A stretch of DNA of 37,691 nucleotides from a virus. Each line of letters opens with the position of its first letter. The first letter of the stretch is position 1. Location: positions 1-37,691 of the IMG/VR virus record IMGVR_UViG_3300025316_000035, one strand, 5' to 3'. Positions 12,036 to 37,691 of the stretch are shown in pieces. The notes beneath the pieces are model-generated. The model was not told the DNA's origin. It did not search any database and was given only the letters and a program-made list of their open reading frames with translations. The translations under genes were made by a program, and so were the position numbers.

Positions 12036-12070
12036 AAAAAAGACCGTATTCATAACGGTCTTTTTTTTTA
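12036..12070 (+). terminator. Intrinsic terminator of the tail operon
   Basis: The stem AGACCGT (12041-12047) pairs with ACGGTCT (12055-12061) and extends through flanking A5 and T5. It is followed by a T run to 12069. It lies 17 bases after the stop of the last tail gene. Confidence 0.9.
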
Positions 12071-12080
12071 CATTTACAGC

Positions 12081-12197
12081 GTCGCATTCACAATCACAAA
12101 TCGGGTAAGGCCTGGACCTGGAAGAGTAGGGAGGAAGACCCTACACTTAAAACCCGGTAGCGGATTGTGAGTGCGACACCTTCCAGGTCCAATTTTT
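12081..12197 (+). ncRNA. Candidate structured RNA, possibly pseudoknotted (or folded integration-site DNA)
   Basis: Four complementary pairs are visible. P1: 12081-12095 with 12163-12177, 15 pairs with one G-U. P2: 12101-12106 with 12152-12157, 6 pairs with one G-U. P3: 12126-12131 with 12139-12144, 6 pairs, 7-base loop. P4: 12113-12124 with 12180-12191, 12 perfect pairs. P4 crosses P1, so the two form a pseudoknot or exclude each other. A T5 run at 12193-12197 follows P4 directly, as in a terminator, and a weak promoter-like TACATTTA (12069-12076) sits just before P1. It does not match any RNA family I know. Because the integrase gene lies next to it, a DNA role as an attachment or arm site is a real alternative. 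Confidence 0.55.
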
Positions 12198-12202
12198 ACA
12201 GC

Positions 12203-12454
12203 ATGTCGCAAGATCAATTTACTGAAATATTCTCATTGTTCAGGGAGAAATTCCCGCCGGTTGAAAATATTCAACAGGCGTCATTAACCTTGACGACTGA
12301 GGAAATTATTGAGACATTCCATTCGTTTAATCCCGATATGGAATTTCCCAGTACTTCCCTGTACAGTTTTATGAAAGCCCAGAGTTACGTATTTCTTCCG
12401 CAGGAGAAAAACGAGCGTATTGTCTTTTATTGGCTGATAGGGCAGAGAGGTTAG
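12203..12454 (+). CDS. Small hypothetical protein, convergent with integrase
   Basis: 83 residues from ATG 12203. A GTG at 12167 is possible but would lie inside the structured element. The sequence looks like a real small soluble protein: acidic helix at the start, then TLTTEEIIETFHSF, then a C-terminal KNERIVFYWLIGQRG. It converges on the integrase gene and overlaps its 3' end by 86 bases. Directly upstream lies the structured element at 12081-12197, which could control it. Function unknown. Confidence 0.45.
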   Translation: MSQDQFTEIFSLFREKFPPVENIQQASLTLTTEEIIETFHSFNPDMEFPSTSLYSFMKAQSYVFLPQEKNERIVFYWLIGQRG

Positions 12455-31807: not shown

Positions 31808-33476
31808 TAAAGAACAGGTAAGCATCCGCTATTCAAATCGTGTGGCAATTCTCATCGACATGATGAAGCCGGCTAACCTCTACCTTCTTGGAGGACGCGG
31901 AACCGGCAAGAGTACAGACATTCTTGCCAACCGGTTTATCGATGTGATGTATGACATGCCCGGAGCTCCCTTTGCCTGGGTAGCCGATACCTACATGAAC
32001 CTTATGACCAACATTATCCCGGAAATCAAAATGGCCTGGGAATCACGTCATGATTTCTTTGAGAACTATCACTATGTGATCGATAAAGAACCGCCGCCGC
32101 ATTTTAAAAAAGCCGGGGCAACGTTCAACTATAAGCATACCATCATCACCTGCCTTGGAAATAAGGTATTTTTGAAGTCCCTGGACAGGCCCTCCATCAA
32201 CGCCGGTATATCCGTGGTGCATCTTTTTGGCGATGAAGCCAAATACATGAAGGAAAGTTCACTTCGTAAACTCAACCCCACACTACGCGGTGACATTGTC
32301 AAATATGGCAAGTCACCTTTCTTTATGGGACAGACCTTCGTTTCTGACATGCCCGATTTGAGTGTCGGGGAACACGACTGGATGTATCGGATGAAAAAAA
32401 GAATGGATCCGGACAAGATTACAATGATTGTCCAGGCTGCCAGGATCCTCAATGAAGTAAACCTTGAACTCTACCAGGCAGAAACAATCAATGCGGATCC
32501 CCGTAAGATCGAACTCATTCGAAATAAACAGGGACGTTGGGAGGAACGTTGCAGAAAGGTGCGTTATGGCAGCACCTTTTTCCATGTGGTATCTTCCTTT
32601 GCAAATGTGGATGTCCTTACCATCAAGTATCTTCAGACACAGATGGAAACACTCACCCCCGAGGAATTCAAACTGGTAATCCTCTCCATCAAGAAAGAGA
32701 TGGAAGCAGGAGCCAAGTTCTATGCCAACCTTACTAATGATCACTTCTACAATGATGAGTATGACTATGACTACTATGATGCAGCAGGATACCAATCCAA
32801 CATCACAAGAACAAGTGCAGGATTGCGCCATGTCAATCCGGATATGGCAATAGAGGCAGGGTTTGATGCAGGGAACATGATGTCCCTGGTATTCGGGCAG
32901 GAACAGGGAGACACATACCGCGTGTTCAAGAACATCTATACCATATCCCCTGACTGGATAAGGGAACTGGCTAACAAGTTCCTGTCCTTCTTTGCAACAC
33001 ACAAAAAGAAGTTCTTGATACTGTACTATGACAGGGCGGCAAACAACTACAACAAATCCCGTAATGACTTTGCAAGCAACCTTAAACATGACATTGAGAA
33101 TGATGGCGCGGGCAAACGTACAGGATGGATCGTGCAACTGATGTCTGTAGGACAAGGCAACATAGCACATGCTGAAAAGTACCACCTTATGAATGTCCTG
33201 ATGAGTGGCAAGGAAAGGCGCCTTCCTAAACTAAGGATTGCAACATCAGAGTGTAAGGAACTCAAATCTGAGTTGGAGATATGCCCGGTCGAAAAGGATA
33301 AGACAGGGCAGATCAAGAAGGTTAAGAAGGGTGACAAACTTCAACCCTTGTCAAGGTTGCCATTAGAGAGTACCAACTTAACCGATGCCTTTGACTATTT
33401 GTTGTGCCGTCGCAAATGGATGGCCATAGTAAAGCAAAGGGGTGCACAGTCCTTTGGATCACTCAACGTGCGCTGA
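31797..33476 (+). CDS. terL: Terminase large subunit
   Basis: 559 residues from ATG 31797. N-terminal ATPase: Walker A GGRGTGKST (32-40) and Walker B VHLFGDEA with D146 and E147. C-terminal RNase H-like nuclease: EAGFDAGNM and LILYYDRAANNY give the acidic residues expected for the metal site. The enzyme pumps DNA into the head and cuts it. An upstream TTG at 31767 would add ten Lys-rich residues that overlap the small subunit gene and is less likely. A strong terminator follows the stop. Confidence 0.92.
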   Translation: MKIDKEQVSIRYSNRVAILIDMMKPANLYLLGGRGTGKSTDILANRFIDVMYDMPGAPFAWVADTYMNLMTNIIPEIKMAWESRHDFFENYHYVIDKEPPPHFKKAGATFNYKHTIITCLGNKVFLKSLDRPSINAGISVVHLFGDEAKYMKESSLRKLNPTLRGDIVKYGKSPFFMGQTFVSDMPDLSVGEHDWMYRMKKRMDPDKITMIVQAARILNEVNLELYQAETINADPRKIELIRNKQGRWEERCRKVRYGSTFFHVVSSFANVDVLTIKYLQTQMETLTPEEFKLVILSIKKEMEAGAKFYANLTNDHFYNDEYDYDYYDAAGYQSNITRTSAGLRHVNPDMAIEAGFDAGNMMSLVFGQEQGDTYRVFKNIYTISPDWIRELANKFLSFFATHKKKFLILYYDRAANNYNKSRNDFASNLKHDIENDGAGKRTGWIVQLMSVGQGNIAHAEKYHLMNVLMSGKERRLPKLRIATSECKELKSELEICPVEKDKTGQIKKVKKGDKLQPLSRLPLESTNLTDAFDYLLCRRKWMAIVKQRGAQSFGSLNVR

Positions 33477-33517
33477 CCATAGGCAAGAAACATCTAACTG
33501 ACATATTGACATTTACG

Positions 33518-33551
33518 AAATCCCATAGGCACGGCCTGTGGGATTTTTTGT
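33518..33551 (+). terminator. Intrinsic terminator after the large terminase gene
   Basis: AAATCCCATAGGC (33518-33530) pairs with GCCTGTGGGATTT (33534-33546), 13 pairs with one G-U, loop of 3, followed by more T. It closes the head and packaging operon. Confidence 0.9.
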
Positions 33552-34087
33552 CATATATCCACCCCCACCCCACCCCATGCCGGCACAAGGACGGGTAGAG
33601 CGGGTCGGCCATAACTGCGTTAAAAATGTGTTTTTTTTGGTTTTTTCGATGGTTTTTTGGTTGAAAAACGGTGTTTTATGTCATTTATTTGCAAAAAACA
33701 GGCGTTTTTATGCGGTTTTTAGTTCAAAACATGCTGTTTTGCTTCCTTTTTCTTTGATTATTTGCTGCAAAGTTAAAGGAAGCGAAAAAGAACACAGCGG
33801 TTCCGGACTCCCGGAACGGGGCAGCTTTTTGGAAACAAGGAAAAAGCAAGCAAAAAGCCAGCGCACGGCTACTCAAATTCAAGCAAAGTTACCTGCAAAT
33901 AATCACTGAAGTGCGTTTAAAACAGGAAAGGGCGACCTCCTTGACGGGAATTGTCGCTCTTCGAGTGTTTTCAGTTTGGAAATCAAACAGACCTACACCC
34001 TTGCCTTTATTTATTATTATCGGTAATGCTACTGGGCAAAATTTTTATTAACCAGTGGCCCAAAGGGTCGCATAAAACAAATGCGCT
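33552..34087. other. Non-coding region with phased A/T tracts and hairpins
   Basis: About 535 bases with no convincing gene. From 33631 to 33751 twelve A or T tracts are spaced 9-12 bases apart, mean near 10.5, which predicts a strong fixed bend. Then come a hairpin GTTCCGG-actc-CCGGAAC (33800-33817) and an imperfect stem AGGGCGAC/GTCGCTCT (about 33925-33958). TAACTTTGC on the minus strand (33768-33776) resembles a promoter -7 element without a good -33. The region may be a packaging, replication or regulatory site. Confidence 0.5.
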
Positions 34088-34546
34088 ATGAAAAACTTGT
34101 TTAATTCTTCCATTTCAGAAATTGAAATCACCTATCGGAACACAGTTCCGCGCAACCAGATGAGAACAGTAACCTCTTCACGCGATGCCGTTGATGCCTT
34201 CAGGGATATATGGAGCAATCAGATGGAACATGTAGAGCAATTCTACATCCTGATGATCAACAGGGCAAACAAAGTTTTGGGGTATACGCTCATTGCCACG
34301 GGCGGGGTTTCTGCCACGGTAGTGGATCCAAAGGTCATCTTTCAAGCTGCATTAAAGGCGAATGCATCATCTATCATCTGTGCACATAACCACCCCTCAG
34401 GAAATAACAAGCCCAGTGATGCTGACATTAAGATCACGGATAAAATCAAGGCAGCAGGCCAGTTCCTGGACATCAATCTGCTGGATCACGTGATCATGAC
34501 TCCGGATGACAACTTTTATTCATTTGCTGACGAAGGGAGGATCTGA
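34088..34546 (+). CDS. radC: RadC-like JAB/MPN-domain protein
   Basis: 152 residues. The MPN+ metal site is complete: E50, H100 and H102 in ICAHNHPSGN, S104 and D111 in PSDAD. The HNHPSG motif is the RadC hallmark. The short form without the N-terminal helix-hairpin-helix is common on phages and mobile elements in Bacteroidota. Suggested roles include DNA repair and anti-restriction; none is proven here. It follows the curved-DNA region and stands apart from the late operon. Confidence 0.88.
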   Translation: MKNLFNSSISEIEITYRNTVPRNQMRTVTSSRDAVDAFRDIWSNQMEHVEQFYILMINRANKVLGYTLIATGGVSATVVDPKVIFQAALKANASSIICAHNHPSGNNKPSDADIKITDKIKAAGQFLDINLLDHVIMTPDDNFYSFADEGRI

Positions 34547-34547
34547 T

Positions 34548-34685
34548 ATGGAAACGATAGTGGAAATATTCATTGTCATGGTAGATGAACTGTATTATGA
34601 AGGGTATGCTCAGGAGTTACAGGAAAGCGACCCGCAACGATTTGAATTTGAGTTGTCAGAGTTTACTTCTCAGTTCTCGATATGA
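34548..34685 (+). CDS. Small acidic protein after radC
   Basis: 45 residues, strongly acidic (ETIVEIFIVMVDELYYEGYA, later FEFELSEF). A GGGAGG-type ribosome site overlaps the end of radC, and the ATG is 1 base after the radC stop. It is followed by a strong terminator, so the pair forms one small operon. The acidity would suit a DNA-mimic or a partner of RadC, but this is speculation. Confidence 0.55.
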   Translation: METIVEIFIVMVDELYYEGYAQELQESDPQRFEFELSEFTSQFSI

Positions 34686-34691
34686 AATATT

Positions 34692-34722
34692 CCGGGACCG
34701 GGAAACCGGCCCCGGTTTTTTT
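34692..34722 (+). terminator. Intrinsic terminator after the radC operon
   Basis: 34692-34701 pairs with 34706-34715 (ten positions, one A-C mismatch), GAAA loop, then T7. Confidence 0.88.
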
Positions 34723-34744
34723 ATTCTCGTAAATGGAAAATATT

Positions 34745-34752
34745 TATATTTG
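34745..34752 (+). promoter_or_regulatory. Promoter -7 element of the secreted-protein gene
   Basis: TATATTTG fits TAnnTTTG and lies 24 bases before the ATG at 34776, after the terminator at 34692. No good -33 TTG is seen at the normal distance, so the call is moderate. Confidence 0.45.
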
Positions 34753-34775
34753 AGCAAACGTTAATCTATTGAAAT

Positions 34776-35297
34776 ATGAAAAAGACATTACTTATTTTGG
34801 TATTTGCTGTTATCAGCTTCACAAGTTTATTCTCTCAGCGAATCGCTGAAGATAAAATCGACGATTTTAACCACAAACACATTATCCGGACTTCATGGGG
34901 TGAGTATGATTTTGGATTAAGTTGGACTGGTTATATGAGGTTCAATAAAGTCGATTCCATGATGTTCATTGAACTCAAAATACAGGTTTCAAGAAGTTCA
35001 TTTGTTTCAGTAGCTGAAGGGAAAAATTTTTACCTAAAATTTGCTGATGATTCAATAATGGGTTTGGAAGTTTTGGAACATGAAATAACAACTATTGGGG
35101 GTGGAGCTGCAGGAATAATGGGTGCTGGGGTTCCTGGAATGATACTTAGATTGGAGGTTGACCCTAAACAAAGAATAAAAATGCTTTCAACTCCAATAAC
35201 GAAAATAAGAATGCAAACAGAGCAGGGTTTATGGGATGAAGAGTTTAATGATACGAAAGATCAAAGGCTTAAAGGCATTCTTAAATTAATAAATTGA
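34776..35297 (+). CDS. Secreted or periplasmic protein of unknown function, moron-like
   Basis: 173 residues. Clear Sec signal peptide: KK start, hydrophobic core LLILVFAVISFTSLF, probable cut after FSQ. The mature part is beta-rich with a Gly-rich hydrophobic stretch near 108-122 (IGGGAAGIMGAGVPGM). It lies between terminators with its own promoter element and is more A/T-rich than the late genes, so it looks like an added gene expressed in the prophage state. A role in lysogenic conversion is inferred. Confidence 0.6.
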   Translation: MKKTLLILVFAVISFTSLFSQRIAEDKIDDFNHKHIIRTSWGEYDFGLSWTGYMRFNKVDSMMFIELKIQVSRSSFVSVAEGKNFYLKFADDSIMGLEVLEHEITTIGGGAAGIMGAGVPGMILRLEVDPKQRIKMLSTPITKIRMQTEQGLWDEEFNDTKDQRLKGILKLIN

Positions 35298-35313
35298 TTC
35301 CATTAATTGGGTA

Positions 35314-35343
35314 TTGACTTTTTAATTCGAAGTTGTATATTTG
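35314..35343 (+). promoter_or_regulatory. Bacteroidota-type promoter for the structured RNA and the gene at 35479
   Basis: TTG (35314-35316), 19 bases, TATATTTG (35336-35343): the best match to the Bacteroidota consensus in the window. Transcription would start near 35350. Confidence 0.7.
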
Positions 35344-35363
35344 TTCCGTCAAACACGAGTCAC

Positions 35364-35462
35364 ATTGAGATTACAACTTCCAAATAGGAGAAATCCTCAG
35401 GTATTCCGACACCGTAAGGTGCGGACGGTTCTCGTGACCGGACAATGCCTGGGGATTTTTTC
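35364..35462 (+). ncRNA. Structured leader RNA, three-way junction with terminator
   Basis: The basal stem 35391-35405 with 35444-35458 has 15 pairs (two G-U) and ends in T6, so it can act as terminator. Two arms branch from it. Arm A, 35406-35424, has a GTAA tetraloop of GNRA type. Arm B is CGGT-tctcgtg-ACCG at 35426-35440. Its loop CTCGTG can pair with upstream CACGAG (35364-35369), a 6-pair pseudoknot. A good promoter lies just upstream and a gene with AAAGGAGGT just downstream. It could be a riboswitch, an attenuator or a free small RNA; I do not recognise the family. Confidence 0.65.
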
Positions 35463-35478
35463 ATAAAGGAGGTAACCT

Positions 35479-35715
35479 ATGTCTTCAAATGAAACCGTCA
35501 TTTCCATTGGCGGAATTGAAATCACCGATCAGCTGGTTCACGCCCTGCAAAACTTGCAGGGAGATTCTCAGGACGAAAAGTTTCTATCAAAGCAGTGCCT
35601 TATCCTGGCATCCATAGATCTGGATAAGTACGGCTTTGACCGGAAATTTTTTGAGGTAATGGTCCAATTACAGGATCTTCTGTCAGCACTGAACAAGGAA
35701 GGAGGTACAAAATGA
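35479..35715 (+). CDS. Small acidic protein under the structured leader
   Basis: 78 residues. ATG is preceded by AAAGGAGGT, a strong Shine-Dalgarno that is unusual in Bacteroidota. Helical and acidic (ITDQLVHALQNLQ..., EVMVQLQDLLSAL). No known family. Its expression is likely controlled by the leader RNA at 35364-35462. An 11-codon frame (ATG 35712) follows and is probably not a gene. A terminator closes the unit at 35752. Confidence 0.6.
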   Translation: MSSNETVISIGGIEITDQLVHALQNLQGDSQDEKFLSKQCLILASIDLDKYGFDRKFFEVMVQLQDLLSALNKEGGTK

Positions 35716-35751
35716 GTCGTACCACACGCAATCCTTCCAAAGTTTAATCAG

Positions 35752-35781
35752 AAACCGCCCCTTAACCAGGGCGGTTTTTTT
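35752..35781 (+). terminator. Intrinsic terminator
   Basis: AACCGCCC (35753-35760) pairs with GGGCGGTT (35769-35776), loop of 8, then T run. Confidence 0.92.
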
Positions 35782-35830
35782 ATGCTTTATCCATCTGATC
35801 AAAAATAACAGAAAATAAATCACATTTTAC

Positions 35831-35862
35831 TTGACAAATGGTATTACATTGTATTACCTTTA
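35831..35862 (+). promoter_or_regulatory. Promoter with direct repeats before the RHH operon
   Basis: TTG (35831-35833), 21 bases, TACCTTTA (35855-35862; one mismatch to TAnnTTTG). Two direct copies of GTATTAC (35841-35847 and 35851-35857) lie between, 10 bases apart. They are a candidate operator for the ribbon-helix-helix protein of this operon. Confidence 0.5.
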
Positions 35863-35890
35863 CATCATCAAACAATTAAAAAACCAAACC

Positions 35891-36160
35891 ATGAAAAATG
35901 TCACAGCAATTCAGATTTTGCCAGCCGGTTACGGTCACAACAAAATAGTGTTATCTATGCAGGAAGGTGCCGATCTATACCTCGTCACAAATAATACACG
36001 CCTGACTGATAGGATAAAAGGCGCGGAAGAAGGTGATGAAGATGCGGCAGATGCACGCATTCAGGCAATCGAATCAGTTCTTGATGCCAATGGAATAGAA
36101 TATTCAAGCGTAAAAGCTCATGAATCTTCAAGGTTAGGCACAACTTGGGATGTTATATGA
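35891..36160 (+). CDS. Small hypothetical protein, first gene of the RHH operon
   Basis: 89 residues from ATG 35891. The frame is open back to 35831 but that part holds the promoter. Mixed alpha/beta: N-terminal KNVTAIQILPAGYGHNKIVL, acidic middle (GAEEGDEDAADARI), C-terminal SSRLGTTWDVI. No known motif. It overlaps the next gene by 4 bases (ATGA), the arrangement often seen in regulator or toxin-antitoxin pairs, but no toxin fold is visible here. Confidence 0.55.
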   Translation: MKNVTAIQILPAGYGHNKIVLSMQEGADLYLVTNNTRLTDRIKGAEEGDEDAADARIQAIESVLDANGIEYSSVKAHESSRLGTTWDVI

Positions 36161-36300
36161 GGGAAGCTCCTTTTTCAATTCGCATCCCTTCAGAGTTAAT
36201 GGATAAGCTGAAGGGGGAAGCCCAGAAGGATGGGCGAACGGTAGGAAACCTTATTGTTCATATCCTTAAAAAGAATTTCACATCGAAACCGGGTAAATAA
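36157..36300 (+). CDS. Ribbon-helix-helix (Arc/CopG-like) regulator
   Basis: 47 residues. APFSIRIPSELMDKLKGEAQ, then KDGRTVGNLIVHILKKNF, fits the RHH pattern: one strand (FSIRI), helix 1 (SELMDKLKGEAQKDG), turn, helix 2 (TVGNLIVHILKKNF). Size equals that of Arc. It binds DNA as a dimer and is a likely autoregulator acting on the direct repeats at 35841-35857. Its stop codon lies inside the loop of the terminator at 36286. Confidence 0.75.
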   Translation: MREAPFSIRIPSELMDKLKGEAQKDGRTVGNLIVHILKKNFTSKPGK

Positions 36301-36312
36301 CCCGGTTTTTTT
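36286..36312 (+). terminator. Intrinsic terminator overlapping the RHH stop codon
   Basis: AAACCGGGT (36286-36294) pairs with ACCCGGTTT (36300-36308), loop of 5, then T run. Confidence 0.92.
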
Positions 36313-36382
36313 ATGCCTATTCCCTTCCCCAAAAAAGGTGTCCTTTTTTCATGCTTGGTTGCCCCTTATGTTTGTCTCTTAC

Positions 36383-36682
36383 ATGAGTGAATTGAACGAA
36401 CAGGAAACCATCGATCTGTGGGATGCAATCAAAGAGATGCGGAAGTTATCCCATGAGGGGATTACTTTCTCCTTTTCCCATGCCACCTATAACCGTGATA
36501 CCATGGTGAGCAACGGAATCCGTCACGTTCAATCGGCAATACTCCGGCCTGCAGCAAGGGGCGATGAAGTTAAGAATGCTGACTTCAAGCTATTCTACAC
36601 CGACGTGGATAATAATGAGAACCGCAATTGCTGGCAGGTCCTGGTCATGTATTTCAATGATAAAAAAGTAATTCTCAATTGA
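36383..36682 (+). CDS. Small hypothetical protein upstream of portal
   Basis: 99 residues from ATG 36383; an ATG at 36368 is also possible. Helical start (MSELNEQETIDLWDAIKEMRKLS), then beta-rich with a strand ending in VILN. TATGTTTG (36367-36374) before the ATG resembles a -7 element, so the message may be almost leaderless. It is followed by the portal gene after 1 base. A portal-linked assembly role is plausible by position only. Confidence 0.55.
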   Translation: MSELNEQETIDLWDAIKEMRKLSHEGITFSFSHATYNRDTMVSNGIRHVQSAILRPAARGDEVKNADFKLFYTDVDNNENRNCWQVLVMYFNDKKVILN

Positions 36683-36683
36683 A

Positions 36684-37691
36684 ATGGGAAAGAAAGAGAA
36701 AATAAATTACGTCCGTCACGGAAATAAAGCATTTGCACATACCTCCGTGGGGTGCTATACTTACGAGATCAGCTCAGATCCCAAAGGTTTTGACGGCATG
36801 AACGTGGTTCCTTTATATGGAAATCTACGGCAACGCCGGCCATTCCATGTCCTGGACAAAGAAATCGTAATGTATGGGGATGGAAACAACTATCCCGACC
36901 AGCTGCGAAGGATCCTTGATGAGAACAATCTCATGCCCGAACTCATCCAGAAACAAACAGATCTGCTCTGGGGACAGGGACCTGCTCTTTATCGCATTGA
37001 GCACAATGATGGCAAACGCACAAGGGTTTGGGAAGAGGATCCTGAAATCATGTCCTGGTTGGATACCTGGGATTACCGCAAGTATCTCATGCAGGCCATC
37101 ATAAATTTTAGAACAACCAATGGCCATTTCACAAAGTACTATCGCAACCGGGGATTAAGGACGGGACGCAAGCCCATGATCACCGAACTGCGTCAGGAAT
37201 CACCGGTATTCTCCCGGCTTGAATGGCCTGATGAATACTGGAATGTCTGTAACATCATCGTGGGCGACTTCGAGATGCCCGGATTATTGGGTCTTCGCAG
37301 CTATCCGGTGTTTGACCCGACTGATCCTTTTGCGTACCCGGTTTCCATGTCGTATGACAACATGTACACCTTCGCCATGGATCATGAATATCCCCGGGCC
37401 GCATGGCACGGTACCATTCCATGGATCAAACTTTCATCATCCATTGTCAAGGTCTTAAATTCCTTTAACCTTAACGCTGCAGCTATCAAGTATCACGTTA
37501 CCTCTCCGGCAATCTACTGGGAACAGAAGGAAGAGCTGCTGCGCAAGCAATGCCAGGAGGAAGACATTGAGTATACCGATGACATGCTGGAGGATCTTAA
37601 AGACGAGACATTCAAGAAGATCACCGAAGCTTTGTCAGGAGCTGACAAAGTGGGCAAAATGGTCACAACGGAAAGTATCTTCGATCAGCAA
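36684..37691 (+). CDS. Phage portal protein, N-terminal part (open at window end, continues at 1)
   Basis: 336 codons visible from ATG 36684, running off the window. Through the overlap it continues to 764, giving about 467 residues. Recognisable portal-like traits are the early helical part (YPDQLRRILDENNLMPELIQ, then KQTDLLWGQGP), a central wing with many aromatic and basic residues, and the start of a long helix (WEQKEELLRKQCQEEDI) that could be the channel-lining stem. Its place after the terminase block and before connector genes supports the call. Only this copy has the intact T run at 37328-37331. Confidence 0.72.
   Translation, partial: MGKKEKINYVRHGNKAFAHTSVGCYTYEISSDPKGFDGMNVVPLYGNLRQRRPFHVLDKEIVMYGDGNNYPDQLRRILDENNLMPELIQKQTDLLWGQGPALYRIEHNDGKRTRVWEEDPEIMSWLDTWDYRKYLMQAIINFRTTNGHFTKYYRNRGLRTGRKPMITELRQESPVFSRLEWPDEYWNVCNIIVGDFEMPGLLGLRSYPVFDPTDPFAYPVSMSYDNMYTFAMDHEYPRAAWHGTIPWIKLSSSIVKVLNSFNLNAAAIKYHVTSPAIYWEQKEELLRKQCQEEDIEYTDDMLEDLKDETFKKITEALSGADKVGKMVTTESIFDQQ
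37323..37691. repeat. Terminal overlap of a circular genome, right copy
   Basis: Second copy of bases 1-368, with one extra T and 12 synonymous differences. It shows that the contig closes on itself within the portal gene. Confidence 0.85.

Follow-up and report, generated by a model that had tools for sequence, protein, structure and literature searches.

A probable c4-type antisense-RNA leader in a Bacteroidota phage, with related cassettes in which an RNA strand is complementary to the start of the following gene

Introduction

What is the function of a tightly folded RNA that has its own promoter and lies directly ahead of a small open reading frame (ORF)? This question is raised by positions 35314–35478 of the window, by which we mean the whole stretch of DNA analyzed, a 37,691-base virus record of a Bacteroidota phage. 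The terminase encoded at 31767–33476 shares 40–44% identity with the terminases of Cellulophaga phage Ingeline (Ingelinevirus), Flavobacterium phage 6H (Duneviridae) and Bacteroides phage BT-TP2. The RNA locus sits in the terminase–portal interval, a place for accessory genes in BT-TP2 and 6H as well. A segment 3′ of the terminase (33737–33792) is 85–87% conserved in four other records (L006, L007, L011 and L013).

The original prediction, made from the sequence of the locus, described a promoter-driven structured leader with a pseudoknot ahead of a small accessory ORF, and interpreted it as a riboswitch-like attenuator ending in a terminator. The first part of this description stands, and our analysis confirms that the promoter-driven three-way-junction RNA with its pseudoknot is real; the attenuator and the terminator are not upheld. 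Among regulators of phage immunity, the c4 RNA is a classic, and its catalogued examples come chiefly from Proteobacteria. We consider that 35348–35478 is probably the leader of a c4-type antisense-RNA cassette (probability about 0.7, including the action proposed below), because the leader and the antisense strand covary, a wider family displays a three-way sequence match, and the layout equals that of phage P1 c4.

Results

The elements of the locus, all on the plus strand, are as follows.

35314–35343, plus strand: promoter of the Bacteroidota type, with TTG at −33 and TATATTTG at −7 (35336–35343)
35348–35359, plus strand: leader pairing strand (a1b1-like); GTC at 35348–35350 pairs with the junction GAC, and CACGAG with the arm-2 loop
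35376–35381, plus strand: possible anti-Shine-Dalgarno strand ACTTCC, paired with GGAGGT (35468–35473) in the minimum free energy (MFE) fold
35387–35462, plus strand: three-way-junction module (c4-like core, 76 nt) comprising a 19-pair basal helix, arm 1, arm 2 and the junction
35406–35424, plus strand: arm 1, consisting of CCG, a one-base bulged A on the 5′ side, CACC, a GTAA tetraloop, GGTG and CGG
35426–35440, plus strand: arm 2, whose loop TCTCGTG is the b′-like antisense loop
35441–35443, plus strand: junction GAC, the a′-like strand, pairing with the leader GTC; a′ of P1 lies in the same junction
35457–35462, plus strand: end of the T6 run and the following C, which pair with GGAGAA as the 3′ side of the basal helix and are not a free terminator tail
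35479–35715, plus strand: 78-aa ORF (P0001), the likely regulated gene, with homologues behind the same RNA in L112 and L114

The promoter had been called the best in the window. The sequence TTGACT-N16-TATATT matches 10 of 12 positions and was the top site in 33000–37691, the stretch that was scanned, so the call holds for that stretch. The Bacteroidota form TTG-N19-TAnnTTTG (35314 and 35336–35343) is a better fit than this arrangement. The transcript is likely to start at G35348, after the TTCC 3′ of the −7 box, because in 38 related cassettes TAnnTTT[GAC] is followed, after 4–5 nt, by the G that opens the match to the ORF start. A near-perfect inverted repeat with 9 bp exact (35323–35337, TAATTCGAAGTTGTA; 35372–35386, TACAACTTCCAAATA) flanks the −7 box and the start site, and could be an operator or due to chance.

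Folding of 35387–35462 gave an MFE of −39.9 kcal/mol (z −5.8), which none of 200 shuffled sequences equaled. The predicted 15-pair basal stem is present and extends to 19 pairs (35387–35405 with 35444–35462), and the two arms, one of them with the GTAA tetraloop, are both part of this fold. The six-pair pseudoknot between CACGAG (35354–35359) and CTCGTG (35431–35436) is weak when taken alone (p about 0.06 by shuffling); we accepted it because it is backed by covariation in the relatives described below.

A covariance model built from the window RNA as its single sequence found L042 (E 4e-7) and, weakly, L084. When these three sequences were combined, the model added L024 (E 3e-7), and a search of the whole records of the nearest phages yielded L112, L114 and L115. 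The last three are close relatives and the former three distant ones. The GTAA loop and bulge of arm 1 are kept in L042 and L024, and also in L084, where the bulge is larger. Across the seven RNAs the leader and loop sequences vary with their complementarity retained (CACGAG/CTCGTG, TCTAGG/CCTAGA, TCGAG/CTCGA, TCTATAG/CTATAGA, ACAAGAATAC/GTATTCTTGT, GAAATCTCAATG/CATTGGGATTTC and GATTAACATGC/GCATGTTAATC), and the second, leader–junction pairing covaries as well (GTC/GAC, GTCT/AGAC, GTTC/GAAC, TCC/GGA). Among all 5,040 permutations of leaders over loops, the native assignment scored highest. The original prediction had proposed that homologues lacking compensatory changes would reduce the element to a plain terminator; the covariance-model search instead revealed such changes in six relatives, and the pseudoknot is thereby borne out. 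Another hit, at 19829 of L091 (28.7 bits), lacked the leader pairing on inspection and was left out of the count. No match was obtained with model R2 in 35 further records or genomes, by blastn of the window RNA against phages and plasmids, or with an exact DNA pattern of the RNA in viral contigs.

To compare this architecture with a known system, phage P1 served as the control, its record annotating a1, b1, c4 (77 nt), a2, b2 and icd in that order. The folded P1 c4 has a 17-pair basal helix, a tetraloop arm, a second arm with b′ in its 9-nt loop, and a′ in the junction. The window RNA (76 nt) shares with c4 of P1/P7 (RF01695) the same succession of promoter, leader strands, three-way junction and small ORF, the same arms and the same places for a′ and b′, and, as in the c4 type, its leader is complementary to its own loop and junction; the corresponding leader motif has been described as c4-a1b1 (Weinberg 2010, PMC2864571). 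RNase P cuts c4 at a GGW at the bottom of the basal stem (PMC5320573), and the GGA at 35387 together with the 76-nt module would fit this rule. The two differ in host group (Proteobacteria versus Bacteroidota) and in the absence of any sequence or model match between them. They also differ downstream: P1 c4 is followed by icd/ant, whereas Pfam gives no match for the window ORF and an ant gene was not identified.

Rfam searches of the window RNA, both at the gathering cut-offs and at E 10, returned nothing meaningful, and neither c4 (RF01695) nor c4-2 (RF02944, clan CL00128) matched it up to E 10. Conversely, neither P1 c4 nor the c4-2 members were recovered by model R3. The c4-2 model (cut-off 41) recognized two of the 19 cassettes whose loci were given to Rfam, namely 15196–15274 of L037 (49.4 bits) and 21181–21258 of L033 (49.8 bits); L100 fell below the cut-off with 31 bits. 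The features shared with c4-2 are an arm 1 that is bulged on its 5′ side and capped by a four-base GAAA loop, a single base between the arms, a loop arm and a 4-nt junction, but the model matches neither the window RNA nor most of the scanned cassettes. The c4-like sRNAs of Acinetobacter baumannii (PMC5320573) likewise occur several to a genome with a variable recognition loop; they are host-borne, whereas those of Bacteroidota belong to phage cassettes that each have an ORF of their own.

A wider family was sought with a descriptor that requires a TAnnTTT[GAC] promoter, a leader complementary to an internal strand, and an ORF start identical to the leader. Applied to 1.7 Mb of DNA from related phages, it yielded 38 non-identical cassettes with the leader at +4 or +5 nt, some of which are close kin of one another. 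In each, the 5′ end of the transcript, an internal antisense strand and the ORF start (UG of the AUG plus codons 2–5) form a three-way match. The best score in a first-order Markov control was 19.2, which reaches the lower part of the list only; the top real scores were 22–31. In all 38 the leader, over its first six bases, is identical to the ORF counted from the G of ATG, and a target of the a2b2 type lies at the ORF start, both in part by selection. Two further measures lay outside the detection. Where leader and antisense mismatch within the first ten bases, the ORF start sides with the antisense 18 times and with the leader once; and in all 38 cassettes the U of AUG has a possible partner in the base 3′ of the antisense (32 Watson–Crick, six G–U), as against 23 of 38 by the same measure for the leader. 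Both comparisons point to selection on the antisense-to-start pairing itself. In P1, the icd start is preceded by a2 and b2, whereas most Bacteroidota members present one continuous antisense to the start codon and codons 2–5. Internal folds vary by subtype, with GAAA or GTAA arms, and the logic remains constant. The ORFs are mostly about 50–120 aa long and belong to at least two families, and the cassettes, often more than one per genome, come from phages as well as prophages of Flavobacteriia, Bacteroidales and their relatives. Cellulophaga phage Ingeline_1, an isolate, has such a cassette at 38164. We also considered whether the repeated 5′ end might be self-splicing, group I-like or HDV-like and discarded these readings, since the elements lack the necessary size and every part is accounted for by the c4 layout.

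One of the 38 cassettes (12069–12454) lies in the window itself. A plain search for multi-branch stems before T-runs, which otherwise returned hundreds of chance folds, had revealed its 12113–12191 stem.

12069–12191, plus strand: second c4-type leader RNA, with promoter TACATTTA, leader GTCGCATTCACAATC (12081–12095) and antisense GATTGTGAGTGCGAC (12163–12177)
12113–12124 and 12180–12191, plus strand: basal helix of the second RNA
12203–12454, plus strand: 83-aa ORF behind the second RNA, whose start ATGTCGCA pairs with TGCGACA of the antisense (7 bp)

Leader and antisense of this copy pair over 15 bp. Homologues of its ORF share an operon with a homologue of the 78-aa ORF in L112 and L114.

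The 78-aa ORF itself is 44% and 42% identical to its homologues in L112 and L114, each of which lies 3′ of the RNA. It has no Pfam match, protein scans with it alone, including one of a phage collection that contains P1, found no relative, and its AlphaFold model is poor (pLDDT 61). The strong ribosome site that had been predicted is indeed present (AAAGGAGG, 35465–35472, upstream of the ATG at 35479), in a phage where Shine-Dalgarno (SD) sequences are rare and most gene starts have none. A possible 11-codon ORF (MSRTTRNPSKV, 35713–35748) overlaps the end of the 78-aa ORF, with AGGAGG 5′ of it and a terminator after it.

The antisense of the 35348 copy was compared with the start of its own ORF. 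Over the first 20 nt the longest pairing is 6 bp (p about 0.06), or 7 bp if codons 6–8 are used (AACCGTC/GACGGTT, p about 0.04); UGUC/GACA gives 4 bp. Ranked by complementarity to the antisense, the ORF's own start is 282nd among 390 ORF starts, and no target elsewhere in the window stood out. By these counts the antisense-to-start pairing of this copy does not appear to go beyond chance. Its ACTTCC strand has counterparts at the same place in the alignment of L112, L114 and L115 (CTTTCT, TCTTCT and ACTTCT), but these carry little information because the SD itself hardly varies; the SD-pairing helix is thus drawn from one fold and four sequences.

Discussion

We propose that the promoter would start an RNA in which an a1b1-like stretch, the first ~12 bases, pairs with the b′ loop and the a′ junction. 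In most family members, the antisense strand is also complementary to the UG of the start codon and to codons 2–5 of the next small ORF, and would block translation of that ORF, in cis or on other copies, whenever it is not occupied by the leader. Removal of the leader would then arm the antisense, in cis or in trans, by analogy with P1, where RNase P cuts the leader off. In the window copy at 35348, the ACTTCC leader strand may hold the SD of the ORF across the basal helix, closing the junction, and the SD would be freed once the leader is displaced or cut at GG35387. Such SD sequestration, relieved by leader displacement or cutting, seems to us the most likely action of this copy, a view that we hold with modest confidence.

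Other explanations differ in what they make of the hairpin and of the gene behind it. The strong hairpin followed by T6, near other stem-and-T-run terminators, would suit a plain intrinsic terminator of the upstream gene (34776–35297), with an unrelated promoter in between and incidental arms. This is quite unlikely, since the promoter precedes the hairpin, the leader pairing covaries, and homologues of the 78-aa ORF follow the RNA in relatives. The predicted T6 exists but is paired within the basal helix, and its position reads UUUCUCC or UUUUUCC in the close relatives (UUUCUCC in L112) and is absent in L084 and L024. Termination is therefore not a conserved feature, and no conserved tract of unpaired U was found behind a GC-rich hairpin in the homologues. 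With the U-run paired in the helix and missing or interrupted in relatives, the terminator half of the predicted riboswitch-like attenuator is not supported either. A ligand-binding riboswitch or attenuator acting on the ORF at 35479 is suggested by the compact junction, the conserved GTAA loop and bulge, the pseudoknot and the SD downstream, but we regard it as very unlikely: no Rfam riboswitch or cis-regulatory family matched, no conserved pocket was seen, and the pairing sequences vary freely with pairing kept, tracking the ORF start in the family, which antisense recognition fits better.

Rather than its own ORF, the RNA might chiefly address other phages, as a free trans-acting sRNA providing c4-style immunity against related or superinfecting ones. 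In P1, c4 determines immunity and binds its target mRNAs once it has been processed (PMC5320573, citing Citron and Schuster), and the ORF start of the window copy is not complementary to the loop. This idea is nevertheless unlikely, given that in 38 relatives the target is carried by the ORF directly behind, and that the RNA and the family of the 78-aa ORF travel together. The combination of a promoter, a pseudoknotted RNA and a small gene behind a hairpin is superficially like a type III toxin–antitoxin system, with the RNA as antitoxin and the 78-aa protein as toxin. Type III toxins are far longer than this protein, tandem RNA repeats are missing, the protein has no Pfam match, and complementarity to ORF starts throughout a family is foreign to type III, which makes such a system highly improbable.

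The c4-type reading places the locus in a kind of regulator that is already known; as far as Rfam 15 and the literature searched extend, its breadth in Bacteroidota, the start-codon-centered target and the window subfamily are undescribed. These cassettes form a large, mostly uncatalogued group in which an RNA complementary to the start of the following gene probably switches that gene off. The c4 logic recurs in Bacteroidota phages and prophages, where nearly all copies escape the Rfam models, and this points to a set of small phage genes kept off by RNA. The rule that the leader equals the ORF start and is the reverse complement of a loop allows such cassettes to be found and tested. More tentatively, and with odds that we put below even, Bacteroidota phages may hold a large and diverse class of c4-like cis-switches controlling mostly SD-less translation, in which the 5′ end is a decoy of the ORF start that keeps the antisense off the start codon, each cassette carries an orthogonal "key" of its own, and the target has moved to the SD in the window subgroup.

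Two variants were noted within the family. L043 (394–568), L044 (14308–14486) and L071 (5008–5172) form a subtype whose basal helix contains AAGUAGUGG / CCACGAAAG, which resembles a loop-E (bulged-G) module; a loop-E-like AGUA/GAA module was noted by eye in L043 and L044. In the Alistipes-type prophages or phages L057 (20364), L065 (10206 and 10515) and L097 (20990), the matched ATG opens an ORF of 5–13 codons and a longer ORF starts 10–16 nt within it, and a leader peptide may thus mediate the action of the RNA; L057 and L065 each have two differently keyed cassettes nearby.
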